IMG/VR virus record: IMGVR_UViG_3300013006_000007
Span: 1 to 32,954 of that record
DNA length: 32,954 nt
Source of the DNA: a virus
Reading direction: 5' to 3' (one strand)
The notes under the pieces are model-generated. The model worked only from the letters and a program-made list of their open reading frames with translations, did no database searches and was not told the origin of the DNA. The position numbers and the translations under genes were made by a program. How positions within the stretch are numbered: the first letter of the stretch is position 1; every line of letters begins with the position of its first letter. Below, one piece after another: positions 11,367 to 21,655 of the stretch.

Positions 11367-11530
11367 TAGATTTGTCTTATAATTACCATTATGTTAAATA
11401 GGATAACTTTCGTAGGGTATTCAAGTAAGTATTTTAATATATGATATCTTACTGACTCAATCGCAAAACATAAACAACAGCTCACTAATTAATCACTAGC
11501 ACAATCTGATGCAACTGGTAAAGCGGTCCT

Positions 11531-11625
11531 AATATAATATAGGATATATTATTTATTCTATTATACAATATATAATATATAATATAATATACATTATATA
11601 ATACAATATACAATATATAATATAT
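11531..11625. repeat. AT-rich TA repeat tract
   Basis: About 95 bases almost entirely A and T, built of TAATATA and ACAATATA units. The 17-mer TACAATATATAATATAT occurs exactly twice (11564-11580 and 11609-11625). Tracts like this melt easily and are common in origins and promoters. No coding potential is seen. Confidence 0.75.
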
Positions 11626-11742
11626 GCACAACTTACTACCATGGTAAAATATCTTTACTGGTGTACTAAATATGGACCGATAAAAGGGTAATATTTTTAC
11701 AATCTTTTAACATTATTTAACATTATTTACAATTTAATACCT

Positions 11743-11750
11743 TAACTTTA
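11743..11750 (+). promoter_or_regulatory. Weak early promoter candidate
   Basis: TAACTTTA differs from the Bacteroidota -7 consensus TAnnTTTG only at the last base and lies 31 bases before the first early ATG. Two tandem AACATTATTT repeats precede it. No -33 TTG was found. Confidence 0.3.
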
Positions 11751-11781
11751 GGTCTCATTAGTAACAATAAAACCATTAAAC

Positions 11782-12015
11782 ATGAACACAAAACAAAACT
11801 TTAACACAATGTCAAGGGCTGAATTGGAACGTAAAAGAAAGGTAATAAACTTTTACACTTTCGGATATGGTGCACCAGAGTTTGACGCCTTTGGTACAAA
11901 AGGAGGTAATGAATACTATCAATTTAATGACGTGGTTTATGCCATGAACAAAAACGATCGTGATAACTTTTACCCAATCTTTGATCAAAAGTTAAATAAA
12001 ATAATTAAACCTTAA
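11782..12015 (+). CDS. Hypothetical protein, first early gene
   Basis: A 77-residue protein I do not recognise. It has a charged N-terminus (SRAELERKRKVINFYTFG) and an aromatic, Gly-rich middle (YGAPEFDAFGTKGGNEYYQF). The ATG is preceded by an A-rich ATTAAAC context like those of its neighbours. As the first gene after the divergent control region it is expected to be expressed early and may act on the host. That is inference from position. Confidence 0.65.
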   Translation: MNTKQNFNTMSRAELERKRKVINFYTFGYGAPEFDAFGTKGGNEYYQFNDVVYAMNKNDRDNFYPIFDQKLNKIIKP

Positions 12016-12019
12016 TAAC

Positions 12020-12151
12020 ATGAAACACATCACCACAATTTTAGCCCTCTTATTAATTGGGGCAATCTATTACAAGGCTGAGACATTGGGCCCCTCCATT
12101 GCTCTTTGCTGTTTGTTATTATCTAATTTAATCACCAATAAAACAAAGTAA
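12020..12151 (+). CDS. Small membrane protein (43 aa)
   Basis: A 43-residue hydrophobic protein. Residues 4-17 (ITTILALLLIGAIY) and about 24-38 (GPSIALCCLLLSNLI) could form two short membrane segments; the end is lysine-rich. The ATG follows an AATAAC context 4 bases after the previous stop, and the next gene starts 1 base after its stop. The tight spacing supports a real gene. It is the first of three consecutive tiny membrane proteins. Confidence 0.55.
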   Translation: MKHITTILALLLIGAIYYKAETLGPSIALCCLLLSNLITNKTK

Positions 12152-12152
12152 A

Positions 12153-12263
12153 ATGCAACACTTAAATACCTTTCTTTTCGTTTGGCAATTAGTTCTATTT
12201 GTTATTATTATATCAAATATGACTAAATTATTAACCGATTATTTATTAACTAAAATCAAATAA
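12153..12263 (+). CDS. Small membrane protein (36 aa)
   Basis: A 36-residue protein with one hydrophobic segment at about residues 7-21 (FLFVWQLVLFVIIIS) followed by a short polar, lysine-containing tail. It starts 1 base after the preceding stop and ends 1 base before the next ATG. Compact packing and the shared layout with its neighbours are the evidence that it is translated. Confidence 0.5.
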   Translation: MQHLNTFLFVWQLVLFVIIISNMTKLLTDYLLTKIK

Positions 12264-12264
12264 C

Positions 12265-12372
12265 ATGAACACACACATCACATTAATTGAGCTTATCGGT
12301 TTTTTAATTATCGGCACTCTATTATTTACCCTTGCAAAAACAATATGGCAAGATTTAACAAAATACAAATAA
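12265..12372 (+). CDS. Small membrane protein (35 aa)
   Basis: A 35-residue protein with one membrane segment at about residues 6-24 (TLIELIGFLIIGTLLFTLA) and a polar tail. It is the third member of the small membrane-protein run. Its stop lies 11 bases before the next likely start (12384). The function is unknown. Confidence 0.5.
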   Translation: MNTHITLIELIGFLIIGTLLFTLAKTIWQDLTKYK

Positions 12373-12383
12373 AATCTAATACA

Positions 12384-12590
12384 ATGACACATCAACAAAG
12401 AGAAACAATATTCAACTGCATAGTAATAACTAAATGCGGAGCTAGTCCAGAGCTTTTAAATCTTAATGATAATGATTTATTAAATGAGCTCGTAAATTCA
12501 TGTCAAGCATTACATGAGGATTTTTGGCAAATTACTGACCAATTAAATACCTTAAAGAGTCGAAATAATGAATTAATAAATAACTTTTAA
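12384..12590 (+). CDS. Hypothetical protein
   Basis: A 68-residue protein from the ATG at 12384. The same frame has an ATG at 12345, but that would overlap the preceding gene and lacks the TACAATG-type context seen before neighbouring starts. It is helical and polar (NDNDLLNELVNSCQALHEDF, then a heptad-like QITDQLNTLKSRNNEL), suggesting a short coiled coil. No family is recognised. Confidence 0.55.
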   Translation: MTHQQRETIFNCIVITKCGASPELLNLNDNDLLNELVNSCQALHEDFWQITDQLNTLKSRNNELINNF

Positions 12591-12600
12591 ACTTAACACA

Positions 12601-12777
12601 ATGACAAACACACAAACACAAAAAGAAACAATTTCAAGACGTTTTCTAGTAGAAAAATTAGAGGCTTTACAAACTGATGAGTTTGACAGCTCCGAATTAG
12701 TTTACTTAACAGATGAGGAGTTAATATACAAAATAATTGAGGCGGCTGAATATTATCAAAACGAATACAATAACTAA
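12601..12777 (+). CDS. Hypothetical small acidic helical protein
   Basis: A 58-residue protein starting at the ATG at 12601 in the context AACACAATG. It is helical and acidic, with ISRRFLVEKLEALQ near the N-terminus and DEELIYKIIEAAEYYQNE at the end. It lies in series with short early genes of the same strand and spacing. I do not recognise it. The triplets CTGATGA within it are coding and do not form a ribozyme. Confidence 0.6.
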   Translation: MTNTQTQKETISRRFLVEKLEALQTDEFDSSELVYLTDEELIYKIIEAAEYYQNEYNN

Positions 12778-12807
12778 CAATCTTAAACACTACAAAACAA
12801 TAACACA

Positions 12808-13713
12808 ATGAAAACTCAATTTAACAATCCAGAATTAACACACATTTGGGCCAATCAGCAACAAGCACAAGGCAAAGGCTCATCAATGTTTTTTGAAAAT
12901 GAGTCTATATATTCTTATGGATATCATTTTAAGATTGCACAAATAGTAGAGCATAACAATAAAAAGGCGGTTTTATTCAATAACAAAAGCTATTCAAATA
13001 CAACGAATAAGCACCAGTCTTTGGTTAAACGTGCTATACCCTCTCAATATCCAGTATTTAACGTTAATTCCTTTCCAGATACAATGCCATTATTAATGAT
13101 GCATTATAATAATTTAATTAGCTATTTAAACGATGCCGAGGAAACTGAACAAAAATTAGTCAAGGCAACAAAATCAAAAGAGGCCTATATTAATTTAATA
13201 AATGTATATCTTAATAGCTTTCGTAATTATTGCGAATTTTACGAGCTTAAAGATTTATCTATTTTTACTTTGCCTAAAGTACAAGGTTTATCAATACACG
13301 AAAGATTTATGAACATAGGGAATTTTGTTTTTAAGTATACACATTCAGAATCTTATATAAATTGGCAACATAAAAGAGCCGAAAAAGAGAGAATAGCATT
13401 TGAAAAGGCTTTATCTGATGCAGCCGACAAAATCCAGCATTTTAGAGACTTTAAGGTTTCTACAGTTTGGGGTATTGGAACAAACCTTTTAAGATTTAAT
13501 AAAGAAACCGAGGAAATAGAAACATCTGGAGGGGTTAAAATGCCTAAAAATATATTTTTTGATGCTTACCAAAGATTAAAAAATAATACTTTGTTAATTG
13601 GTCAACACATAGGACAATATAGATTTAATGGCCTTGAAAATGATACTTTATTAGTTGGCTGTCATAAAATACCAGTAAATGAGGTTGAGAATATTGTACC
13701 AGTGCTAGGTTAA
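12808..13713 (+). CDS. Early protein of unknown function, message ends in a hammerhead ribozyme
   Basis: A 301-residue protein, the largest early gene before the replication genes. The N-terminus contains GKGSSMFFENESIYSYGYHF, the middle is helical (NNLISYLNDAEETEQKLVKA), and residues about 240-300 form a compact beta-rich end with ETSGGVKMP, IGQYRFNGL and VGCHKIPVNEVENI. I recall similar ends (T-S-x-G-G...GCH-x-I...E) in many phage proteins of unknown function but cannot name the family. Its TAA stop (13711-13713) is part of stem I of the ribozyme that follows, so its mRNA would end 54 bases after the stop once cleaved. Confidence 0.75.
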   Translation: MKTQFNNPELTHIWANQQQAQGKGSSMFFENESIYSYGYHFKIAQIVEHNNKKAVLFNNKSYSNTTNKHQSLVKRAIPSQYPVFNVNSFPDTMPLLMMHYNNLISYLNDAEETEQKLVKATKSKEAYINLINVYLNSFRNYCEFYELKDLSIFTLPKVQGLSIHERFMNIGNFVFKYTHSESYINWQHKRAEKERIAFEKALSDAADKIQHFRDFKVSTVWGIGTNLLRFNKETEEIETSGGVKMPKNIFFDAYQRLKNNTLLIGQHIGQYRFNGLENDTLLVGCHKIPVNEVENIVPVLG

Positions 13714-13773
13714 CTGATGAGGCTTGATATTAGCCGAAATAGAGGCCCATTCATTTGGGCCTTTATATTAACC
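13708..13773 (+). ncRNA. Type I hammerhead ribozyme
   Basis: All parts of the hammerhead fold are present in order. Stem I 5' strand GGTTAA (13708-13713) is followed by core CTGATGA (13714-13720). Stem II GGCT/AGCC (13721-13724 and 13732-13735) has a 7-base loop TGATATT. Core GAA (13736-13738) follows. Stem III is 11 bp with one G-U wobble (13739-13749 with 13756-13766) around TTCATT, including the required A15.1-U16.1 pair. The cleavage-site base is A13767 (NUH = AUA), followed by stem I 3' strand TTAACC (13768-13773). The open ends lie in stem I, so it is type I. Cleavage is predicted between 13767 and 13768. A further GTG/CAC pairing (13702-13704 with 13784-13786) may extend stem I beyond an internal loop. 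Confidence 0.92.
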
Positions 13774-13786
13774 AAAATTCAAACAC

Positions 13787-14014
13787 ATGTTTACACAAAT
13801 TAACAATGACACATACGGCAACCCTCGTTATGTAGTACATTATTTACAATTAGCCGACACATACCAAAGAGCTTTGTATTTAAGTCGCCAATTAGGGGGG
13901 AAAAAATTCCATAATAAACAGTATGGAGGCGGTATAGTTTTTCAGTCTTATAATACTAGAATTTTAGGTGATAAAATATGCCAAATAAAAGAGGCTGAAT
14001 ATTTAGCGAAATAA
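13787..14014 (+). CDS. Hypothetical protein downstream of the ribozyme
   Basis: A 75-residue protein. The sequence NPRYVVHYLQLADTYQRALY is followed by a Gly/Lys-rich GGKKFHNKQYGGGIVFQSYN, which looks like a small alpha/beta fold; no family is named. Its ATG lies 19 bases after the predicted ribozyme cleavage point, so the cleaved message would begin with a very short 5'-hydroxyl leader. This placement suggests its translation or stability may depend on ribozyme cutting. Confidence 0.65.
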   Translation: MFTQINNDTYGNPRYVVHYLQLADTYQRALYLSRQLGGKKFHNKQYGGGIVFQSYNTRILGDKICQIKEAEYLAK

Positions 14015-14040
14015 GGCTAAATAAGGCGGTTAAATTATGC

Positions 14041-14062
14041 GGTTGGTATATATGTACCGACC
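14041..14062 (+). repeat. Hairpin GGTTGGTA/TACCGACC
   Basis: An 8-bp stem with one T-G wobble around the 6-base loop TATATG, 26 bases after the preceding stop. There is no T tract after it, so it is not a standard terminator. It could be an RNA end structure or part of the origin. Confidence 0.55.
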
Positions 14063-14072
14063 AATAACAAAG

Positions 14073-14091
14073 ACAGCTCAAATAGGGCTGT
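14073..14091 (+). repeat. Hairpin ACAGCTC/GGGCTGT
   Basis: A 7-bp stem with one T-G wobble around the 5-base loop AAATA, 10 bases after the previous hairpin. It is followed by AAATAGCTT, not a T tract. The pair of hairpins may be one structured RNA element. Confidence 0.5.
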
Positions 14092-14150
14092 AAATAGCTT
14101 AAAAAGTTAGTATATATTAACGTGCATACACGTGCAAAAACTATCCTTTA

Positions 14151-14185
14151 ATGTTATAACATCGATGTCTAAACATTGTACAATG
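14151..14185. repeat. Cluster of three perfect palindromes
   Basis: ATGTTATAACAT (14151-14162), ACATCGATGT (14159-14168) and CATTGTACAATG (14174-14185) are each perfect palindromes within 35 bases. Such clustering is more than expected from neighbouring intergenic sequence and suggests bound dimeric proteins. Confidence 0.55.
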
Positions 14186-14206
14186 ATGCAACGTTTATGG
14201 CAACGT

Positions 14207-14305
14207 GCCAAAAATCTGGTAGGCCTAAAAATCTGCTTGGGTATAGGTACGCAAAAACCTGCCAAAAATCTAGCACCGACAAAAATCTTTTATAGACAAA
14301 AACTT
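14207..14305 (+). repeat. Phased iteron-like array, consensus gnCAAAAATCT
   Basis: Near-copies occur at 14207 (GCCAAAAATCT), 14224 (CCTAAAAATCT), 14261 (GCCAAAAATCT), 14278 (GACAAAAATCT) and 14295 (GACAAAAACTT). Start-to-start steps are 17, 37, 17 and 17 bases. Regular spacing of short direct repeats is typical of iterons bound by replication initiators. Confidence 0.6.
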
Positions 14306-14395
14306 TTTACGTTTTAACATTATATTAACTAAAAAATATTAAATAATAACAAAAAACCTTTAATTTTACTAAACCAAAGCAAAAAACTACAAATT

Positions 14396-14602
14396 ATGTT
14401 CAGATTAATTACCGCAACATTTGACTGCAGATGCAGTCTTACTGGTAGATTACTTCGCAAAGGAGAACAAGTCTACTACAACGACACTAGCAAAACTGTT
14501 ATAGAAGCATTAGAGTATGAGCTACTAATGAGAAAAACAGTTATCGGAGAGAAAAAAACCTATTTTACCAGACATTCTAAATTAAACACCAAAACAAAAT
14601 AA
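14396..14602 (+). CDS. Hypothetical small Cys-containing protein
   Basis: A 68-residue protein with a CRCSLTGRLLRKGEQVYYND core, resembling small phage proteins in which a Cys-x-Cys-S-x-T-G motif precedes K-G-E-x-x-Y-Y. It may be a single-site metal binder, but I cannot name a family. It is the first gene after the candidate origin region and is followed 1 base later by the next gene. A weak -7-like TAATTTTA lies at 14361-14368. Confidence 0.6.
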   Translation: MFRLITATFDCRCSLTGRLLRKGEQVYYNDTSKTVIEALEYELLMRKTVIGEKKTYFTRHSKLNTKTK

Positions 14603-14603
14603 C

Positions 14604-14798
14604 ATGAACACTTACCAATTTATCGAAGAGCACGACTTTTTATTAAACGAGACCTTCTATTTTACTAGAAAAGATGGACTTATAGTTTCTGGAACTATGG
14701 GTAAAAATTACGATAAGGCGTATTTAGTCTATCAAAATTTATCTTTAGGTAAAGCATTATCAGAAGAAAAAGTCTTGTTTACAGTTACCACACCATAA
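14604..14798 (+). CDS. Hypothetical protein
   Basis: A 64-residue protein I do not recognise. The pattern FIEEHDFLLNETFYFTRKDG followed by LIVSGTMGKNYDKAYLVYQN suggests a small beta-rich fold. The ATG follows AAAATAAC, 1 base after the previous stop. It belongs to a run of four short genes ahead of the HTH and DnaA-like genes. Confidence 0.6.
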   Translation: MNTYQFIEEHDFLLNETFYFTRKDGLIVSGTMGKNYDKAYLVYQNLSLGKALSEEKVLFTVTTP

Positions 14799-14807
14799 TA
14801 ATAAACA

Positions 14808-15047
14808 ATGAACAAAAAACTAACCCTTGAGCAAAAAAAGAAAGGCATCAAAGAAGAGTACACTTATGTTAACAGCAACGGAAGAATCTCAAAACAATAC
14901 ACCTATAAAGGAATGGTTATTAAATGGGATAATCAAATTCTAAATGGTAAATGGTTCTACTGGAGGAGTTCTTACTACTCATCATTAGATGCCGCAGTTC
15001 ATGGAATAGACAGACATATTAAATTATTTAATCAACAACAACAATAA
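14808..15047 (+). CDS. Hypothetical basic protein
   Basis: A 79-residue basic protein. A lysine-rich N-terminus (MNKKLTLEQKKKGIKEEYTY) is followed by a beta-rich stretch (YKGMVIKWDNQILNGKWFYW), then a short helix with DAAVHGIDRHIKLF and a poly-Gln end. The middle is compatible with a small nucleic-acid-binding domain, but this is not established. The gene lies 9 bases after its neighbour. Confidence 0.6.
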   Translation: MNKKLTLEQKKKGIKEEYTYVNSNGRISKQYTYKGMVIKWDNQILNGKWFYWRSSYYSSLDAAVHGIDRHIKLFNQQQQ

Positions 15048-15049
15048 AC

Positions 15050-15352
15050 ATGGAAAATCAAGAACAAGAATTAATCGACAACACAACAGTAGACGTAAAA
15101 GGTGAAACAATCGTATTCCCAGCAGAATGGTGCTTTAAGTTTGACGATGGAGAACCTCAAGTATTCGCAGCAGCTAACGAGAAAATAGATGGCCAAGAAC
15201 CAGCTATAAAGTTAGTGCTTAGTAACACAGAAGAGGCTAAAGTTACTTTTACACAAGACGGAAAAACTTTTACTATTTTTTGTAGAACACTTACAGAATT
15301 AGGACAAGAATTAATTAACAAAAACAACCCACCCCAAGATGATAGAAGTTAA
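15050..15352 (+). CDS. Hypothetical acidic protein
   Basis: A 100-residue acidic protein with beta-strand patterns (GETIVFPAEWCFKFDDGEPQ, AIKLVLSNTEEAKVTFTQDG, KTFTIFCRTLTELGQEL). No family is recognised. It starts 2 bases after the previous stop and overlaps the next gene by 14 bases, which argues for coupled translation with the HTH protein downstream. Confidence 0.65.
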   Translation: MENQEQELIDNTTVDVKGETIVFPAEWCFKFDDGEPQVFAAANEKIDGQEPAIKLVLSNTEEAKVTFTQDGKTFTIFCRTLTELGQELINKNNPPQDDRS

Positions 15353-15536
15353 GGATTATCGGGCTATGCTTAAACATGGTGATATTAAAAAAATATGTGC
15401 CATCACTGGGCTTACGCCTTATCTGTTAAAGACTCGTTTAGATAAGCACGATTATGAAACAGTAGAAATTGTTACAGCTTATTATGCTAAAAAATTAGAA
15501 GCATTAAAAAACCAAATAAATGATTACAGTGAATAG
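15339..15536 (+). CDS. Small helix-turn-helix-like protein
   Basis: A 65-residue protein whose centre, HGDIKKICAITGLTPYLLKT, fits a helix-turn-helix, followed by a helix (VEIVTAYYAKKLEALKNQI). It overlaps the upstream gene by 14 bases and the DnaA-like gene downstream by 17 bases. It may be a DNA-binding regulator or part of the initiation machinery. This is inference from the motif and position. Confidence 0.6.
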   Translation: MIEVKDYRAMLKHGDIKKICAITGLTPYLLKTRLDKHDYETVEIVTAYYAKKLEALKNQINDYSE

Positions 15537-15897
15537 AGGCAGACCATCAAGAGAATCTTTAAACATTAACAAAGTTTATAAGATAGAACGCAAGTTAATA
15601 AATGAACTTATAGAAGTAGTAACACAAGTATTTGAAGTAAAGATGAAAAACTTGTTAAGTCCTAAGAGAAATAGAGAGTTAGTTTTAGCTCGTAATATGG
15701 CATATTACATATTGCATACTGCTTACTGCCAAAAAGCTGCTCAAATAGCTCCTCATTTCAAAAGGGATAGAACAACTATACTACATGGGATTCACACTTT
15801 TGTGAACGACATAGAAGTAATACCATTCTACATGGAAAAATACGATGCTGTTATGGACCAATTATTTACACCAAATAATATATACGCCTTACAATAA
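15520..15897 (+). CDS. Stand-alone DnaA domain IV-like protein
   Basis: A 125-residue protein resembling the C-terminal DNA-binding domain of the replication initiator DnaA, without the AAA+ part. After a short basic start it has LLSPKRNRELVLARNMAYYI (residues 45-64), then KAAQIAPHFKRDRTTILHGI (72-91), where D-R-T-T-I-L-H is the DnaA signature (usually D-H-T-T-V-x-H). It could bind DnaA-box-like sites at the phage origin or compete with host DnaA. It overlaps the HTH gene upstream and lies 1.2 kb from the iteron-like array. Confidence 0.78.
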   Translation: MITVNRGRPSRESLNINKVYKIERKLINELIEVVTQVFEVKMKNLLSPKRNRELVLARNMAYYILHTAYCQKAAQIAPHFKRDRTTILHGIHTFVNDIEVIPFYMEKYDAVMDQLFTPNNIYALQ

Positions 15898-15908
15898 AAC
15901 CAAATACT

Positions 15909-16121
15909 ATGATATCTACATTCCACTTATTATCAGAACAAGAGCAAAAGCTATTCGTAGCTAAAATAATTCACGAGATGAATTACAATCAAGCATCCTA
16001 TAAACTAATGCAACTATTAGTTAGTTACTGGGATGAGAATCCAATTAATCATGTGCAATTTTTCCCAAACCAATTTATCACAAATACAAAACAACTAAAA
16101 AATGGAAAATCAAATAACTAA
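15909..16121 (+). CDS. Hypothetical protein
   Basis: A 70-residue, mainly helical protein (LLSEQEQKLFVAKIIHEMNY, then ASYKLMQLLVSYWDE) that I do not recognise. It starts 11 bases after the DnaA-like gene and overlaps the following gene by 20 bases, so both are probably translated from one message. Confidence 0.6.
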   Translation: MISTFHLLSEQEQKLFVAKIIHEMNYNQASYKLMQLLVSYWDENPINHVQFFPNQFITNTKQLKNGKSNN

Positions 16122-16797
16122 ACCAATGTACGATTTGATTAAAGCAGATGATATGCTTGAATTATCAAATCAATTAGCAAAACTTATTAAAGAGAAAGGC
16201 TTATCAAGCAATATTCAAGGTAAGCAATTCGTTAATGTTGAAGGATGGCAGTTTGCTGGAGCCTCATTAGGGTTAATGCCGATTATCACAGAAACTACGG
16301 ACTTAACTCGAAGAGGCACAGAACCTGGTCAAGTAGAAATAAAGTACATGGCTAAGTGCGAAGTACGAAATATTAATACTGGTCAGTTAGTAGCTACTGG
16401 AGTAGCAATCTGTAGCAACTTTGAACATAGTAAGAAAAGATTTGATGAGTACGCAATTTTATCAATGGCACAAACTCGTTCTATTGGTAAGGCATATCGT
16501 AACTTACTTGCATGGTTAATGAAGTCTGCTGGATTTGAAGCTACACCTGCTGAAGAGATGGACTTTGCTGGACCAGAAGAGGCAAAAAAACCTAACAAGC
16601 CAGTTAAAGAAGTAGTAGCAGAAATAATAGAAGATACAGAAGAGGTTGATTTAGAAGCTATAAAAGTAGAAATAGCAAACAGCACTAAAATGAAACAATT
16701 AACTGACATCTATTTTGGCTATAAGCAAGTGTTCGATTCTAACGAACAGCTAAAAAAACTATTATCCATGAAAAAAGAATCATTAACCAAAAAATAA
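16102..16797 (+). CDS. Putative single-strand annealing/recombination protein
   Basis: A 231-residue protein. The core at about residues 40-155 has QFVNVEGWQFAGASLGLMPI, a beta sheet (VEIKYMAKCEVRN, LVATGVAICSNFE), then YAILSMAQTRSIGKAYRNLL and SAGFEATPAEEMDF. The arrangement of strands before an AQTR-x-x-GKAYR helix recalls the ERF/Rad52-like annealing proteins, and I know the AQTR...TPAEEM pattern from other phages. The family name is not certain. The C-terminal 80 residues are charged and linker-like. Position next to replication genes supports a recombination role. Confidence 0.55.
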   Translation: MENQITKPMYDLIKADDMLELSNQLAKLIKEKGLSSNIQGKQFVNVEGWQFAGASLGLMPIITETTDLTRRGTEPGQVEIKYMAKCEVRNINTGQLVATGVAICSNFEHSKKRFDEYAILSMAQTRSIGKAYRNLLAWLMKSAGFEATPAEEMDFAGPEEAKKPNKPVKEVVAEIIEDTEEVDLEAIKVEIANSTKMKQLTDIYFGYKQVFDSNEQLKKLLSMKKESLTKK

Positions 16798-16802
16798 ATA
16801 AA

Positions 16803-17267
16803 ATGAGTTTTACATTATTACCAAAGGTTGAATTATCATCTATTGAACCTACAAAATTTAGTATTGAGTTACTAAAACAAACTATCGTTTCTCATTTCAG
16901 AGAGACTGGAGACAATCCTCTTGAGATGCTTGTTAAGGCAGAGGCTTTAATACAGCTTTTAGATGGCATTAGAACTGATTTAAAGGAAGATGTTATAACA
17001 ATTCTATCAAGTCATCCACAAGGAAAAGCAGAGGTTCTAGGAGCCGAAGTAAGTAAGTTTGAGTCTGGCGTTAAATATGCTTACGATGGTGACCATACAT
17101 GGCTTAAAATGAATCAAGAGTTAGAAGCTATTAAGTATAAGCAAAAAGAAAGAGAAAACCTACTTAAAACTATTAAAGACCCTTTAGTAGACCCAGAAAC
17201 TGGCGAAATGATTTACCCAGCTCCTAAGTATAGTACAACAACATTTAAAATCGCATTAAAGAAATAA
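16803..17267 (+). CDS. Hypothetical protein paired with the annealing protein
   Basis: A 154-residue, mostly helical protein. The N-terminal half has FSIELLKQTIVSHFRETGDN and KAEALIQLLDGIRTDLKEDV. The C-terminal half has YDGDHTWLKMNQELEAIKYK, a lysine-rich coiled coil and a YPAPKYSTTTFKIAL end. I do not recognise the family. It follows the putative annealing gene by 5 bases, the position often held by an accessory recombination factor; that role is inference. Confidence 0.6.
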   Translation: MSFTLLPKVELSSIEPTKFSIELLKQTIVSHFRETGDNPLEMLVKAEALIQLLDGIRTDLKEDVITILSSHPQGKAEVLGAEVSKFESGVKYAYDGDHTWLKMNQELEAIKYKQKERENLLKTIKDPLVDPETGEMIYPAPKYSTTTFKIALKK

Positions 17268-17268
17268 C

Positions 17269-17427
17269 ATGAATCAACCAACAATGACTAACGAGCAATT
17301 CGCTATGTGGGTAGCATTAGGCCAAGGCATGGATAGTAAACTCTTTGAAAGAGCAGATGATATATTAGATTGGCTTGAGAAAAAAGAGAAGAAAGTAGTT
17401 AAACCTATAATGCCTAAAACTAAATAG
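17269..17427 (+). CDS. Hypothetical small protein (52 aa)
   Basis: A 52-residue protein with an NEQFAMWVALGQGMDSKLFE helix and a lysine-rich end (EKKEKKVVKPIMPKTK). The ATG lies 1 base after the previous stop, and the next ATG 1 base after its stop. The tight spacing supports translation. The function is unknown. Confidence 0.6.
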   Translation: MNQPTMTNEQFAMWVALGQGMDSKLFERADDILDWLEKKEKKVVKPIMPKTK

Positions 17428-17428
17428 T

Positions 17429-17545
17429 ATGATAAAAAATACATTAGGTATGATAAAGTTTTTTTTTATCTCAGTACCACTTTTTCTTATTGTTTATTGT
17501 ACCGCCATGACAATAATAGAAATAAAACAATTTATAAGAAAATGA
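17429..17545 (+). CDS. Small membrane protein (38 aa)
   Basis: A 38-residue protein with one membrane segment at about residues 8-30 (MIKFFFISVPLFLIVYCTAM) and a basic end. Its TGA stop overlaps the ATG of the next gene (ATGA), typical of translational coupling. No family is known to me. Confidence 0.5.
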   Translation: MIKNTLGMIKFFFISVPLFLIVYCTAMTIIEIKQFIRK

Positions 17546-17874
17546 TTTACCAATTAAAAAATACTATTGATGTACATACTCCACTTGGGTACGGTAAAGC
17601 AATCGCCTGGATTGACTACGGTTCCGATACAAACACAGTTTGGAAAGTCATATTATACGACACAGGCATGGTTAGGAACTTTTACGACGATGACGTTCTC
17701 GTATATCCCAACGCAATGGATGGAGGAGAAATCGATGAAAAGTTCTTCGTCAAAAGAGAGTTTAAGTATAGTAATCAACAATTTATGAAAGGACTAAAAA
17801 ACCACTATAAACCAAATGAGTCAAGAGATAAGGGGATTGGAGAACAACATTCAAGTGAGAATGATTTATCTTGA
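17542..17874 (+). CDS. Hypothetical protein
   Basis: A 110-residue protein starting at the ATG at 17542, which overlaps the preceding TGA. The same frame is open further upstream only to a TTG inside the preceding gene. The first 70 residues are beta-rich (VHTPLGYGKAIAWIDYG, VWKVILYDTGMVRNFYDDDV) and resemble small proteins that bind a loop or strand. The rest is polar. I cannot assign a function. Confidence 0.65.
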   Translation: MIYQLKNTIDVHTPLGYGKAIAWIDYGSDTNTVWKVILYDTGMVRNFYDDDVLVYPNAMDGGEIDEKFFVKREFKYSNQQFMKGLKNHYKPNESRDKGIGEQHSSENDLS

Positions 17875-18025
17875 TACCAAAGAAGAGATAGCATTTAAGT
17901 CAATAGCACAAGCAAACAGAAAGACCAATATCAACGCACAAACCATACGAGAATCACTCAACCCAATACTAAAAAGGCGTTTTACCCATAACGCCAGGGT
18001 TGTAGTGTTTCGTATAAAAAAATAA
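17816..18025 (+). CDS. Small NUMOD-like DNA-binding protein
   Basis: A 69-residue protein. Residues from about 14 read VRMIYLDTKEEIAFKSIAQA, then NRKTNINAQTIRESLN and a basic VVVFRIKK end. This matches the layout of the short DNA-binding modules found beside homing nucleases: a strand, S-x-x-x-A helix, then helix and final strand. No nuclease domain is attached. The start is uncertain: ATG at 17816 overlaps the previous gene by 59 bases, and an ATG at 17861 would give 54 residues. Confidence 0.55.
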   Translation: MSQEIRGLENNIQVRMIYLDTKEEIAFKSIAQANRKTNINAQTIRESLNPILKRRFTHNARVVVFRIKK

Positions 18026-18029
18026 CTTA

Positions 18030-18629
18030 ATGTCACAATTTTACACAACAATAATTCATCCAGTACGGAAGGAATTTAAACTCTCGTGCAATGAATACTG
18101 CGTATTAGATACGATTATGCGTATGCAGAACAATGAATCGCATTGGTGCTACATGAGCAAAGAAACAATGGGTAAGGACCTTGACCTATCTAAGCAAACC
18201 ATAATGAATATCATTAACTCATTGTTAGATAAGCAGTTAGTACAAAAAAGTATGGCTACAAAACACTTACGTGTAACGTCAGTATTTATGGAATATTTAA
18301 ACGATTACAAAAAGTTTACCAATGGTAAAGAAAGTTTACCAGAGCATACAAAAAACTTTACCGAAATCGGTATAAAAAGTTTACCTAACAATAACACTAA
18401 CAATAAGAATACATTTATTAGGCCTACGGCTGAGTTAGTAAACGAATATTCTAAGGAAATTGGCTTTATATTAGATGCCTCTCAATTTATAGACCATTAC
18501 GAAGCAAGAGGATGGTTGATAGGTAAAAACCCTATGAAGGATTGGAAGGCAGCAGTAAGAACATGGAAACGTAATAGTTCCCAATTTGGTAACAATACAG
18601 AATCATCAACAAAGATTAAATTAAAATAA
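18030..18629 (+). CDS. Replisome organiser / helicase-loader-like protein
   Basis: A 199-residue protein. Residues 1-90 form a winged-helix domain (EYCVLDTIMRMQ, then MSKETMGKDLDLSKQTIMNI, NSLLDKQLV). A polar linker follows, and the C-terminal region has FIDHYEARGWLIGKNPMKDW and KAAVRTWKRN. This is the layout of phage replication proteins that bind the origin and bring in the helicase. The stop overlaps the start of the DnaB-type helicase gene (TAATG), strongly supporting a loader or organiser role. Confidence 0.78.
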   Translation: MSQFYTTIIHPVRKEFKLSCNEYCVLDTIMRMQNNESHWCYMSKETMGKDLDLSKQTIMNIINSLLDKQLVQKSMATKHLRVTSVFMEYLNDYKKFTNGKESLPEHTKNFTEIGIKSLPNNNTNNKNTFIRPTAELVNEYSKEIGFILDASQFIDHYEARGWLIGKNPMKDWKAAVRTWKRNSSQFGNNTESSTKIKLK

Positions 18630-19963
18630 TGGAAGCAATTTTATTACCATATAGCAAAGAACTAGAAAAGAACATACTTGGTGCAATACTTTTAGACAAA
18701 AGAGTACTTCCTTTAGTCGTAGGCCATCTAAAAACAGAAATATTTTATGACTTAGGACACCAAAAAGTTTTTGCTACTATTAAAAAAATGTACGATGATA
18801 ATGTTTCTATAGACTTATCTACAATAGCACAGAAATTAGTTAACGATGAGACAATAAAAGAATTAGGAGGTGCTTACTATCTTTCAAAGTTAACTGATAA
18901 TGTAACTGGTGGTTCGCATATTAACACACACATTGATATGGTAGTTGAGTTATACAAAAAACGTGAGGCATACATGCTGTTTAAACAAACGGAGATGGAA
19001 TGTTTAGACAATGATAGTCAAGCTATAGCTTTACTTTCTACTGTAAATAGTAAACTTATAGCTTTACAAGAGTTCGGTAATATCCACGAAAAAAGCATAG
19101 ATGATGTTATTATGGGCCTAAACTATGCAAGAGACAAAGCACAAAGTGGTCAACTTTTAGGATTTAATACTGGTTTTGAGGAGATTAATAACACATTGGC
19201 TGGATGGTGCAAACCAGACTTAGTTATCATAGCTGCAAGACCAGGAATGGGTAAGACAGCTTTCATGCTTTCTACTATTTACCATCTATGTATTGTGCAG
19301 AAGGTTCCAGTGGCCATTTTTAGCCTCGAAATGAGCTCCGAGCAGTTAGTTGAAAGGTTAGAGTCAATTACGAGCATGGTGCCCTTAAAACGCCTTAGAA
19401 TGAATTTAATGGATGACGAAGAGAGAAAGATTCTTTTGAAGTCTGATGATAAGATTTTACTATCCCCTCTACATATTGAAGATACAGGCGGTATAGGTAT
19501 TTCCCAATTAAGGGCTAAAGCAACCATAATGAAGCAGAAGTATGGTATAAAGGTCATCTTTATAGATTACTTGCAACTTATGAGTGGACAAAACAAAACA
19601 AACCAAAACCGAGAGCAAGAGGTGAGTTTGATTAGTAGAAGTCTTAAATCTTTAGCCAAAGAATTAGGAGTGCCGATTATCGCCTTATCTCAATTATCTC
19701 GTAAAGTAGAAGAACGAGCTGATAAAATGCCACAGCTTTCTGACCTAAGAGAATCTGGTTCTATTGAGCAAGATGCTGATGCTGTTATTATGCTGATGAG
19801 GCCTAATTATTACGAAATGACTAACCCAATAGAAATTGGTGGCAAAGAATATCCAACTAATGATTTGGTTATTTGTAAAGTAGAAAAGAATAGGCATGGC
19901 AGTACTAAAAATATTGCTCTTAGATTTTTACCAGAGACAATGACCTTTATAGATTATAAGTAA
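18629..19963 (+). CDS. dnaB: Replicative DNA helicase, DnaB family
   Basis: A 444-residue hexameric helicase. The N-terminal DnaB domain (about 1-150) starts LPYSKELEKNILGAILLD. The RecA-like domain has GFNTGFEEINNTLAGW, Walker A ARPGMGKT (203-210), FSLEMSSEQL, Walker B VIFIDYLQLMSG (309-320) and an LSQLSRKVEERADKMPQLSD segment with LRESGSIEQDADAV. The length and all motifs are normal. It is joined by one-base overlaps to the loader-like gene before it and the small gene after it. No primase or polymerase was found, so host enzymes are probably recruited. Confidence 0.95.
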   Translation: MEAILLPYSKELEKNILGAILLDKRVLPLVVGHLKTEIFYDLGHQKVFATIKKMYDDNVSIDLSTIAQKLVNDETIKELGGAYYLSKLTDNVTGGSHINTHIDMVVELYKKREAYMLFKQTEMECLDNDSQAIALLSTVNSKLIALQEFGNIHEKSIDDVIMGLNYARDKAQSGQLLGFNTGFEEINNTLAGWCKPDLVIIAARPGMGKTAFMLSTIYHLCIVQKVPVAIFSLEMSSEQLVERLESITSMVPLKRLRMNLMDDEERKILLKSDDKILLSPLHIEDTGGIGISQLRAKATIMKQKYGIKVIFIDYLQLMSGQNKTNQNREQEVSLISRSLKSLAKELGVPIIALSQLSRKVEERADKMPQLSDLRESGSIEQDADAVIMLMRPNYYEMTNPIEIGGKEYPTNDLVICKVEKNRHGSTKNIALRFLPETMTFIDYK

Positions 19964-20334
19964 TGGGAAAGTATAATGGCTATAGAAATAGACGAAAGTT
20001 TGAAATAGAGGAGGCTCGTAACCAAGATGGTACCTATCAAGCAATTAAACTATTTGCTAAGAATACTAAGGTGCTTGTTATACAAGCTCCCATGGCCCTA
20101 ATTAATAAGTATTTTTGGATAGAATATGAACGTGATGGTAAACCATCTGGTATATCTGATACTCGTATTGAGTTCTTTGCTATAAACTTTGACCTTAGAG
20201 ATAGAATCTACTTTATGAGGGCTGAAATGCTACGCAAAAAAGCTCGTAGATACTTCAGAGCCAGTGAGATAAAGGTAGAAGAAACAGTAAAATATGTAAA
20301 GTTTCCTACAGAGGAAATGATTAGACACGCTTAA
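19963..20334 (+). CDS. Hypothetical protein downstream of helicase
   Basis: A 123-residue basic protein with MGKYNGYRNRRKFEIEEARN, a beta-rich middle (YQAIKLFAKNTKVLVIQAPM) and a basic helix RAEMLRKKARRYFRASEI. It may bind nucleic acid, but no family is recognised. It overlaps the helicase stop by one base (TAATG), so it is translationally coupled to replication genes. Confidence 0.65.
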   Translation: MGKYNGYRNRRKFEIEEARNQDGTYQAIKLFAKNTKVLVIQAPMALINKYFWIEYERDGKPSGISDTRIEFFAINFDLRDRIYFMRAEMLRKKARRYFRASEIKVEETVKYVKFPTEEMIRHA

Positions 20335-20352
20335 TATATTAAATATATATAG

Positions 20353-20360
20353 TAACTTTG
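20353..20360 (+). promoter_or_regulatory. Promoter -7 box match TAACTTTG
   Basis: A full match to TAnnTTTG, 4 bases before the ATG of the nuclease gene, in an otherwise AT-only stretch. The spacing would place the start of transcription at about the ATG, so either the message is leaderless or the match is fortuitous. No -33 element is seen. Confidence 0.25.
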
Positions 20361-20364
20361 ATTT

Positions 20365-20733
20365 ATGGCAGCATACAAAACGGCTTCTGATTTAACAAAA
20401 ATGATGTTAGATTATTTACGTGAAAGAGGACATGAAGTATGGCGTAATAATAATTTAGCAGTAAAAGGTAGAGCATTTATTGGTAAAAAAGGAGTTCCAG
20501 ACATAATTGGCTACAATAAAAAATATGGTCAATTTATGGCTTGTGAGATTAAGGCTATAGGTGATAAGGCATCACCAGAACAGATGTCATTCTTAATCAA
20601 TCTTGCTATGTGCGGAGGTACTGCAATGTTATGCCAACAGTTAAGAGATGAACAAATTATAGTTAAAATATTTAATGAAGATGGCGAAAGCAAAGACTGG
20701 CAATTCATCGAAGGTGAGCTTCGGAAGTCGTAA
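20365..20733 (+). CDS. VRR-NUC family nuclease
   Basis: A 122-residue nuclease of the VRR-NUC/Holliday-junction-resolvase-like fold. Visible features are a first helix with LTKMMLDYLRERGHEVWRNN, then GKKGVPDIIGY (D46), FMACEIKA (E61, K63) and DKASPEQMSFLINL (Q73), the PD-(D/E)XK-type catalytic set. These proteins cut branched DNA during replication or packaging. It is stand-alone, as usual in phages. Its 3' end overlaps a small basic gene in another frame. Confidence 0.85.
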   Translation: MAAYKTASDLTKMMLDYLRERGHEVWRNNNLAVKGRAFIGKKGVPDIIGYNKKYGQFMACEIKAIGDKASPEQMSFLINLAMCGGTAMLCQQLRDEQIIVKIFNEDGESKDWQFIEGELRKS

Positions 20734-20806
20734 AAGAGGTAGAGCTAAAAAATCGTATAACAAACATAGTCCTAAGCCTAAAAAATATTTAGGTCAAGGC
20801 AGATAA
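20675..20806 (+). CDS. Small very basic protein (43 aa), overlaps nuclease gene
   Basis: A 43-residue protein rich in Lys and Arg (SFGSRKRGRAKKSYNKHS, KPKKYLGQGR). Two in-frame ATGs, at 20675 and 20681, are possible starts. It overlaps the nuclease gene by 59 bases in another frame. I recall short basic proteins ending in a Y-x-GQGR motif in other Bacteroidota phages. It may bind DNA or RNA; this is inference. Confidence 0.6.
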   Translation: MKMAKAKTGNSSKVSFGSRKRGRAKKSYNKHSPKPKKYLGQGR

Positions 20807-20817
20807 ATTAAAATAAC

Positions 20818-21003
20818 ATGGAAGATTTAGAATTAGAAAACAAAGCAGAAAAAGCTCCTAAAGCTACTAAAAAGGCTAAAGAGTTTGTATCTAACGAAAC
20901 TATTGACTTAATTCAATCAATATTGGATGATGGTTCAGTAGATTTAAAGTGGAGAGAAGCACTTAAAGCTCAAGTAAAAAAATACAAAAAGGATGCAGAA
21001 TAA
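20818..21003 (+). CDS. Hypothetical small charged protein
   Basis: A 61-residue protein with a Lys/Ala/Glu-rich start (KAEKAPKATKKAKEFV) and two amphipathic helices (ETIDLIQSILDDGSVDLKWR, EALKAQVKKYKKDAE). No family is recognised. It overlaps the following gene by 11 bases. Confidence 0.6.
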   Translation: MEDLELENKAEKAPKATKKAKEFVSNETIDLIQSILDDGSVDLKWREALKAQVKKYKKDAE

Positions 21004-21202
21004 TCAAGAATTAGATTCAATAGTAGAATCTGTAGTTATTAAGTATAAAGAAAGAGCCAATTTAGGCCTTACTAAATACGGAACTAACTTAGATAGAACA
21101 GATTTGAATGTTAAGGATTGGGTAGAACATCTACAGCAAGAATTAATGGATGCTGTTCTTTACTTAGAGAAACTAAAGAGTGAATTAAAAAATAGTATTT
21201 AA
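20993..21202 (+). CDS. MazG-like nucleotide pyrophosphohydrolase-type protein
   Basis: A 69-residue protein with the phage pattern KYKERANLGLTKYGTNLDRT followed by WVEHLQQELMDAVLYLEKL. The E-L-x-D-A...Y-L segment is the metal-binding helix of all-alpha NTP pyrophosphatases of the MazG kind. Small phage versions probably clean or adjust nucleotide pools, or lower host alarmone signals. It overlaps the upstream gene by 11 bases. Confidence 0.72.
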   Translation: MQNNQELDSIVESVVIKYKERANLGLTKYGTNLDRTDLNVKDWVEHLQQELMDAVLYLEKLKSELKNSI

Positions 21203-21219
21203 CAATTAAAACAAATATC

Positions 21220-21471
21220 ATGGCCAAATCAAGAGACAACTATCTTGGGAGATGCAAGACGTTAACTTCAGCTTACGGACCACTTAGGAAAATATCCCTA
21301 GGTCCAGATGACTTAAAAAAGATTAATGACTTCGCAGCAGAAAACAAAGGATGGACAAACATCCTATTTAAAATGAAGAAAACATTTGAACCTGGTGAAT
21401 CAGATTTCTATGTAGAAATGGATTTATGGAAACCAGACCCTTCTGTAACAAAAGAAAAACTACCTTTCTAG
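21220..21471 (+). CDS. Hypothetical protein
   Basis: An 83-residue protein with AYGPLRKISLGPDDLKKIND, FAAENKGWTNILFKMKKTFE and EMDLWKPDPSVTKEKLPF. It looks like a compact beta-rich domain with a proline-rich tail. The family is not known to me. It is one of the last genes of the early unit and is followed 1 base later by a membrane protein gene. Confidence 0.65.
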   Translation: MAKSRDNYLGRCKTLTSAYGPLRKISLGPDDLKKINDFAAENKGWTNILFKMKKTFEPGESDFYVEMDLWKPDPSVTKEKLPF

Positions 21472-21472
21472 T

Positions 21473-21655
21473 ATGAAAAACATCAAAGAAGTACTACTTG
21501 GCATTTTTGGTTTATTTACATTTACTTACATTCCATTCGCATTTGTATATGGAGAATGGAATCCTATCAACTGGAATGTATTTATTAGAGCATTATATGT
21601 ACTTTGTATCACAACAATCATTACATTTGCAATTAAAGAACAGAAAATAAAATAA
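21473..21655 (+). CDS. Small two-segment membrane protein, last early gene
   Basis: A 60-residue protein with two membrane segments, about residues 8-25 (LLGIFGLFTFTYIPFAFV) and 36-54 (VFIRALYVLCITTIITFAI), and a basic end. It is the last gene before the terminator at 21684. The function is unknown; a holin or exclusion role cannot be excluded, but early position argues against lysis. Confidence 0.65.
   Translation: MKNIKEVLLGIFGLFTFTYIPFAFVYGEWNPINWNVFIRALYVLCITTIITFAIKEQKIK

Follow-up and report, generated by a model that had tools for sequence, protein, structure and literature searches.

The role of hammerhead ribozymes in bacteria and phages has been in question since 2010-2011. The window, the whole 32,954-nucleotide stretch of viral DNA analyzed here, carries a putative hammerhead at a gene junction, and the question is what such an element would do there. 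Prophage hammerheads that cluster around single genes or short gene blocks were described in 2011; they cleaved in vitro and, for one cloned set, in E. coli, and long phage transcripts were proposed to be cut by them to gene-length mRNAs (Perreault et al. 2011, PMC3088659).

Genomic setting of the window hammerhead

The + strand block at 11782-21655 contains small genes together with a SarA/Rot-like regulator, a DnaB helicase and a VRR nuclease, and the portal and terminase genes lie on the opposite strand. This neighborhood supports reading the ribozyme region as an early operon, of which only one junction carries a hammerhead. A preliminary description of the DNA had placed the element between two unknown early genes of a Bacteroidota-type phage. 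The early + strand block and the phage type agree with this: the terminase matches of best coverage were to Bacteroides, Phocaeicola and Parabacteroides phages. The downstream gene is not an unknown, since it belongs to the Pfam family Phage_TreK, which takes its name from a terminal-repeat protein of a Staphylococcus phage. Distant relatives of the upstream gene occur in named phages, one of them within the terminal repeats of Caulobacter phage Karma.

Sequence and predicted fold of the window element

A complete type I hammerhead was read from the sequence between the two genes (Table 1). The preliminary description had reported CTGATGA and GAA boxes with all invariant bases, a 4-bp stem II with a 7-base loop, an 11-bp stem III carrying the A15.1-U16.1 pair, and a 6-bp stem I (GGTTAA/TTAACC), all of which were borne out by sequence and fold; the AUA triplet and the cut expected from hammerhead structure also lie where it had put them. 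The A15.1-U16.1 pair is A13739-U13766, H17 is an A and not a G, and A13707 and A13774 flank stem I. The last three bases of the stem I 5′ strand are the TAA stop codon of the upstream gene (13711-13713).

Table 1. Features of the hammerhead locus in the window.
Feature	Position	Strand	Basis
Upstream gene, 301 aa, PHROG 7247	12808..13713	+	homologues found
Complete type I hammerhead	13708-13773	+	sequence reading
Stem I 5′ strand, GGTTAA	13708-13713	+	sequence, fold; compensatory GGTTTA/TAAACC in L307, L309
Catalytic core CUGAUGA (C3-A9)	13714-13720	+	sequence, fold, relatives
Stem II, 4 bp, GGCT/AGCC	13721-13724 with 13732-13735	+	sequence, fold
Loop II, UGAUAUU, 7 nt	13725-13731	+	sequence, fold
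Catalytic core GAA (G12-A14)	13736-13738	+	sequence, fold, relatives
Stem III, 11 bp including one G-U	13739-13749 with 13756-13766	+	fold; compensatory changes across L001-L006
Stem III loop, UUCAUU	13750-13755	+	sequence, fold
Cleavage triplet AUA	A13765-U13766-A13767	+	sequence
Predicted cleavage site, after A17	13767/13768	+	position from hammerhead structure
Stem I 3′ strand, TTAACC, 6 bp with GGTTAA	13768-13773	+	sequence, fold
Predicted 19-nt leader of downstream mRNA after cleavage	13768..13786	+	relatives' spacing
Downstream gene, 75 aa, Phage_TreK (PF24229), PHROG 3164	13787..14014	+	Pfam/PHROG matches

When the RNA of 13700-13780 was folded, the hammerhead was both the minimum-energy and the centroid structure, with three stems that join at the core, of which II and III end in loops and I is open. 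Its energy of -26.8 kcal/mol compares with a mean of -15.3 (standard deviation, 2.85) for shuffled sequences (z = -4.05), and none of 200 shuffles did as well. Over both strands of the window, a hammerhead descriptor (the core, stems of at least 4, 3 and 4 bp, A15.1-U16.1 and H17) had one match, this element; 200 dinucleotide-shuffled versions of that DNA together yielded one. As far as sequence can tell, all features of the element are those of a type I hammerhead.

Rfam families and a covariance model of the class

The Rfam covariance check suggested in the preliminary description, taken by itself, went against the element. At gathering scores, the Rfam 15 families RF00163, RF00008, RF02275-RF02277 and RF03152 gave no match in the window; the top sub-threshold hammerhead family was RAGATH-1-hammerhead, at 21.6 bits against a cut-off of 56.3. 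A class model (R1) was used for comparison, a covariance model built from 41 equal-length relatives and the hammerhead structure with the window sequence excluded. Searched with filters off, it scored 45.1 bits at 13706-13775, with an E value of 2.8e-9 (R1 E values are rough), and the runner-up place in the window reached 17.8 bits. Since the members of the R1 alignment were picked by a pairing descriptor, pair counts on it are partly circular.

The hammerheads in 31 other phage loci did not pass the Rfam cut-offs either. A textbook hammerhead in locus L060, for example, scored 24.1 bits with RAGATH-1-hammerhead (RF03152), its best Rfam family. Because Rfam fails at these 31 loci too and the class model succeeds, the miss in the window is best read as a blind spot, and Rfam was rejected as arbiter for this phage class. 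Current Rfam annotation overlooks phage hammerheads wholesale.

Relatives of the window hammerhead

A search of viral contigs with the upstream protein returned six loci (L001-L006; 54 to 97% identity), and all six keep a hammerhead over the upstream stop codon. Stem III has changed in compensated fashion among them (GGCCCA/TGGGCC, GCCCC/GGGG and AGTCCC/GGGACT), the core is identical apart from one inserted U in four (L001-L004), and the genes downstream of the ribozyme differ in kind. A more distant relative of the upstream gene in genome G003 (29% identity) also has a hammerhead over its stop codon.

With the downstream protein, 80 loci were found, 7 of which (L304-L309 and L376) have a hammerhead directly in front of the gene; in L307 and L309, stem I carries a compensatory change to GGTTTA/TAAACC. 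The start codon lies 18 to 19 nt past the cut in nearly all copies of the window clade, the distance being 19 nt in L001-L006, L306 and L308 and 18 nt in L307 and L309. The other 73 of the 80 downstream homologues have no hammerhead in front of them, and 4 of 5 distant homologues of the upstream gene in named phages are likewise without one. Processing is therefore not essential to either gene.

The 3′ side of one distant homologue of the upstream gene, in Rhizobium phage RHEph01 (L553:2390-2446; JX483873, about 2577-2633), contains a probable, unannotated hammerhead with stem I ACCAC/GTGGT.

In a variant core, a single base is inserted after A9, before stem II begins. There were 29 such insertions, 28 of them a U, always before GG, so that 28 of 340 copies among the matches listed have the U-inserted core (L001:4316-4380, L002:3617-3683, L003:5901-5967, L004:2291-2357 and 24 others). 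The insert is present in the closest relatives of the window hammerhead and absent from the window. Perreault et al. 2011, in the part available here, list the core insertions A6a, U13a and 2a/2b, an insertion between A9 and stem II not being among them (PMC3088659).

A widespread phage class and its signature

IMG/VR DNA was scanned with sequence patterns, each scan listing at least 120 stretches, so that all copy counts are lower bounds; the sampling is not random. In the first 202 sources, which total 1.79 Mb, the descriptor picked out at least 272 hammerheads, versus 1 in one shuffled copy, and the number of distinct copies rose to at least 332 after the third pattern scan. To guard against circularity, 330 of the copies listed were selected on the core, stem II and stem III alone, with stem I ignored. 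In this set, stem I positions 1 to 6 were paired in 97, 97, 97, 97, 95 and 89% of copies, with all Watson-Crick pair types represented, and position 7 in 7%. Position 7 was A-A after a 6-bp stem I in 269 of these 330 matches. Loops II of 5 nt follow the consensus UNANU, positions 1, 3 and 5 conforming in 207, 190 and 207 of the 211 matches listed. With so short a stem I, fast cleavage at cellular magnesium would need a tertiary contact; the UNANU loop and the A-A flank may constitute a conserved contact of this kind between loop II and the end of stem I.

The window hammerhead fits the class by its R1 match, its 6-bp stem I with A-A, a TAA at 13711 and an ATG 19 nt after the cut. Its loop II is a 7-nt variant, unlike the 5-nt UNANU loops, and its cleavage base, A17, is a minority choice, C being commoner. 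GGTTAA as an invariant stem I was rejected: it was an artifact of the search pattern, and a looser pattern returned many stem I sequences.

Applied to GTDB genomes, the same pattern gave nearly all chance matches and one true contig (L405) among the matches listed. For the Flavobacterium cucumis family, 301 genomes were searched with the model under strict filters and without a positive control; there was no match, a result that carries no weight. On the GTDB scan, the class elements look phage-borne, though prophages may carry them as well. Hammerhead queries were generally too short for significance in blastn against named phages, although one search led to Pelagibacter and Flavobacterium phages (see below).

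Placement at gene junctions

Upstream open reading frames were called at 60 or more open codons and downstream starts as an ATG with 30 or more; the calls at control positions were simple. In 233 of the 332 matches listed, the upstream stop codon fell between -15 and +8 relative to the core (versus 21 at random positions), and in 212 the first ATG lay 15 to 30 nt past the cut (versus 26). In 180 of the 280 listed copies that have an upstream frame, the stop codon of that frame falls within the ribozyme itself. Going by these positions, the window hammerhead is not isolated but belongs to a widespread class at gene junctions.

Full phage records contain hammerheads in series: nine within 4.3 kb in G007, seven each in G013 and G003, six in G006 and five in G001. 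These copies partition small-gene operons, each block holding one gene or a few. In G003 (L551; G003:C1:75000-82750), all seven post-hammerhead leaders have in common about 30 conserved nt, GTCAGGTGCAGACTATAACAGGCAC, which lie between cut and start; variation there between GTC/GAC and GTG/CAC suggests a small hairpin.

The G+C-rich 11-bp hairpin of stem III could be taken for a mere intrinsic terminator or attenuator between genes, its hammerhead likeness being secondary. In a few relatives, such as L022:4069-4135 and L037 (IMGVR_UViG_3300006030_000497), stem III is indeed a GC hairpin with a U-tract, as in a textbook terminator. However, a scan of 11500-15500 of the window gave no terminator-like site, just 3 of the 336 matches listed have 6 or more T's among the final 9 nt of stem III, and termination would account neither for the invariance of the core nor for a stem I of exactly 6 bp nor for the 18- to 19-nt leader. 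A general role for stem III as an intrinsic terminator was rejected on the rarity of the U-tract and the empty scan, and we consider this account of the window element very improbable. In L022 and L037, a single hairpin could serve termination and ribozyme alike.

A second alternative is that the ribozyme serves as a joint at which genes are shuffled. As a boundary tolerant of recombination, it would give any upstream gene its stops and any downstream gene its leader, and RNA processing would only safeguard the junctions. Neighboring genes are swapped while the ribozyme stays, at least 187 pairs of copies sharing only the upstream family and at least 51 only the downstream family. In 129 of the 332 matches listed, the 5′ half has a stop in each of the three frames, versus 11 of 332 control positions. 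G007 and G013 have homologous genes in common whose order and grouping differ, so both junctions and genes have been reshuffled. If breakpoints lay inside the ribozyme, though, stem II would be expected to go with the gene before it and stem III with the gene after it, and this asymmetry is absent: among the matches listed, mean similarities of stems II and III were 0.59 and 0.53 where the upstream gene is shared and 0.60 and 0.51 where the downstream gene is. The idea of stem I as a universal joint, with breakpoints falling within the ribozyme, was rejected because the similarities of the two stems do not track the genes separately. Shuffling as the primary function appears unlikely.

Proposed role in the early operon

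We think it quite likely that the window element is an active type I hammerhead at an intercistronic junction of a phage early operon, where it splits the transcript. The structure, its compensated conservation, the placement of the stop and start codons and, as precedents, the cleavage of phage and prophage hammerheads and the HF2 transcript end (see below) suggest cleavage, a timing relative to translation and an effect on expression that would run as follows. Since the stop codon is built into stem I, ribosomes completing the upstream gene would mask that stem together with the core, and the early transcript would fold and be cut there only after the last of them has cleared the stop codon. 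The polycistronic early mRNA would then cut itself between A13767 and U13768, parting the upstream gene from the TreK-family gene. The upstream mRNA would end in the stem III hairpin with a 2′,3′-cyclic phosphate, and the TreK-family mRNA would begin with a 5′-OH, the TTAACC strand of stem I being its first 6 nt. The A-rich leader of 19 nt would be long enough for ribosome entry. The most likely purpose would be to turn one early transcript into messages that are translated and degraded separately.

Successive hammerheads might instead act in pairs, with cleavage followed by ligation yielding circular or spliced single-gene RNAs. Copies often flank single genes, and the stem I sequence is common within a phage, so that any 5′-OH end could meet any cyclic-phosphate end. 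Against this, the window has one copy only, and a search by Perreault et al. for products that were spliced or circular came up empty (PMC3088659). We give this possibility hardly any credence.

For transcript splitting, the series and the placement statistics extend the proposal beyond the window: at hundreds of phage gene boundaries, the class probably cuts long messages to gene size. More tentatively, with confidence a little short of even, we suggest that these hammerheads form a distinct class that Rfam misses, defined by a 6-bp stem I with A-A, a UNANU loop, an embedded stop codon, a start codon 15 to 30 nt after the cut and up to nine copies per phage. Many phages would use the class as a general means of cutting early operons to messages of one gene each, and the departure of the last ribosome from the upstream gene would set the time of cleavage.

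Comparison with known hammerheads

That phage hammerheads process mRNA was already proposed by Perreault et al. (2011), and we do not claim the class features as first observations. Their prophage clusters resemble the window element in flanking single genes or short gene blocks and in the proposed cutting of transcripts; unlike those clusters as described in the available part of that paper, the window is a free-phage contig of Bacteroidota type, with a hammerhead that Rfam misses and a stop codon inside stem I. The same part of the paper makes no mention, for the prophage hammerheads, of the UNANU loop II or of a 6-bp stem I followed by A-A (PMC3088659).

The HHphage hammerhead of the haloviruses HF1 and HF2 likewise sits a short way (13 nt) before an early phage gene, and an early transcript of HF2 has its 5′ end within 3 nt of the cleavage site. 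HF1 and HF2 are archaeal viruses, however, and their core has a two-base insertion, whereas the core in the window is canonical (PMC3088659). RAGATH-1-hammerhead (RF03152) shares core and topology with the window element, but its 5′ extension is not conserved here.

Cultured phages also carry the class. The class model found hammerheads in Pelagibacter phages HTVC019P, HTVC022P and Jormungand and in Flavobacterium phage elemoC (E values of 2.4e-11 to 1.1e-8). Like the window element, they have a 6-bp stem I and a 4-bp stem II, in the UNANU loop architecture; they differ in having unrelated neighbor genes and other stem I sequences (GCAAAA, GTTGTA and GGCAAA), with a single copy in each phage. 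The elemoC hammerhead (minus strand of MT497067, predicted cut at about 16958/16957) lies 28 nt before a start codon, and the published annotation overlays a small reverse-strand open reading frame on it.

Among the papers that our literature search covered, none dealt with hammerheads in Pelagibacter phages, and there was no report of stop-codon embedding, of the start spacing, of the UNANU/6-bp/A-A signature, of the Rfam failure or of the U-inserted core. A class with fixed placement of stop and start codons predicts mRNAs with 5′-OH ends 15 to 30 nt before start codons, and its cultured carriers (elemoC and the Pelagibacter phages) make this prediction testable by ordinary RNA end mapping.

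A different element ahead of TreK-family genes

Before some TreK-family homologues, the place of the hammerhead is taken by another element, CCCATCGCTTAAGGCGTGGCATTCGATTGCAAATGGGT, with a predicted three-way junction (L310:2722-2762, L311:2934-2974 and L502-L509); it also precedes at least two other genes. An Rfam search with this element gave no match, and a looser pattern returned no further true copies. The three-way junction was not favored when L310 was folded alone. Compensatory changes in a single divergent copy affect the outer stem as well as the inner hairpin, in which GCA/TGC contrasts with AGA/TCT.
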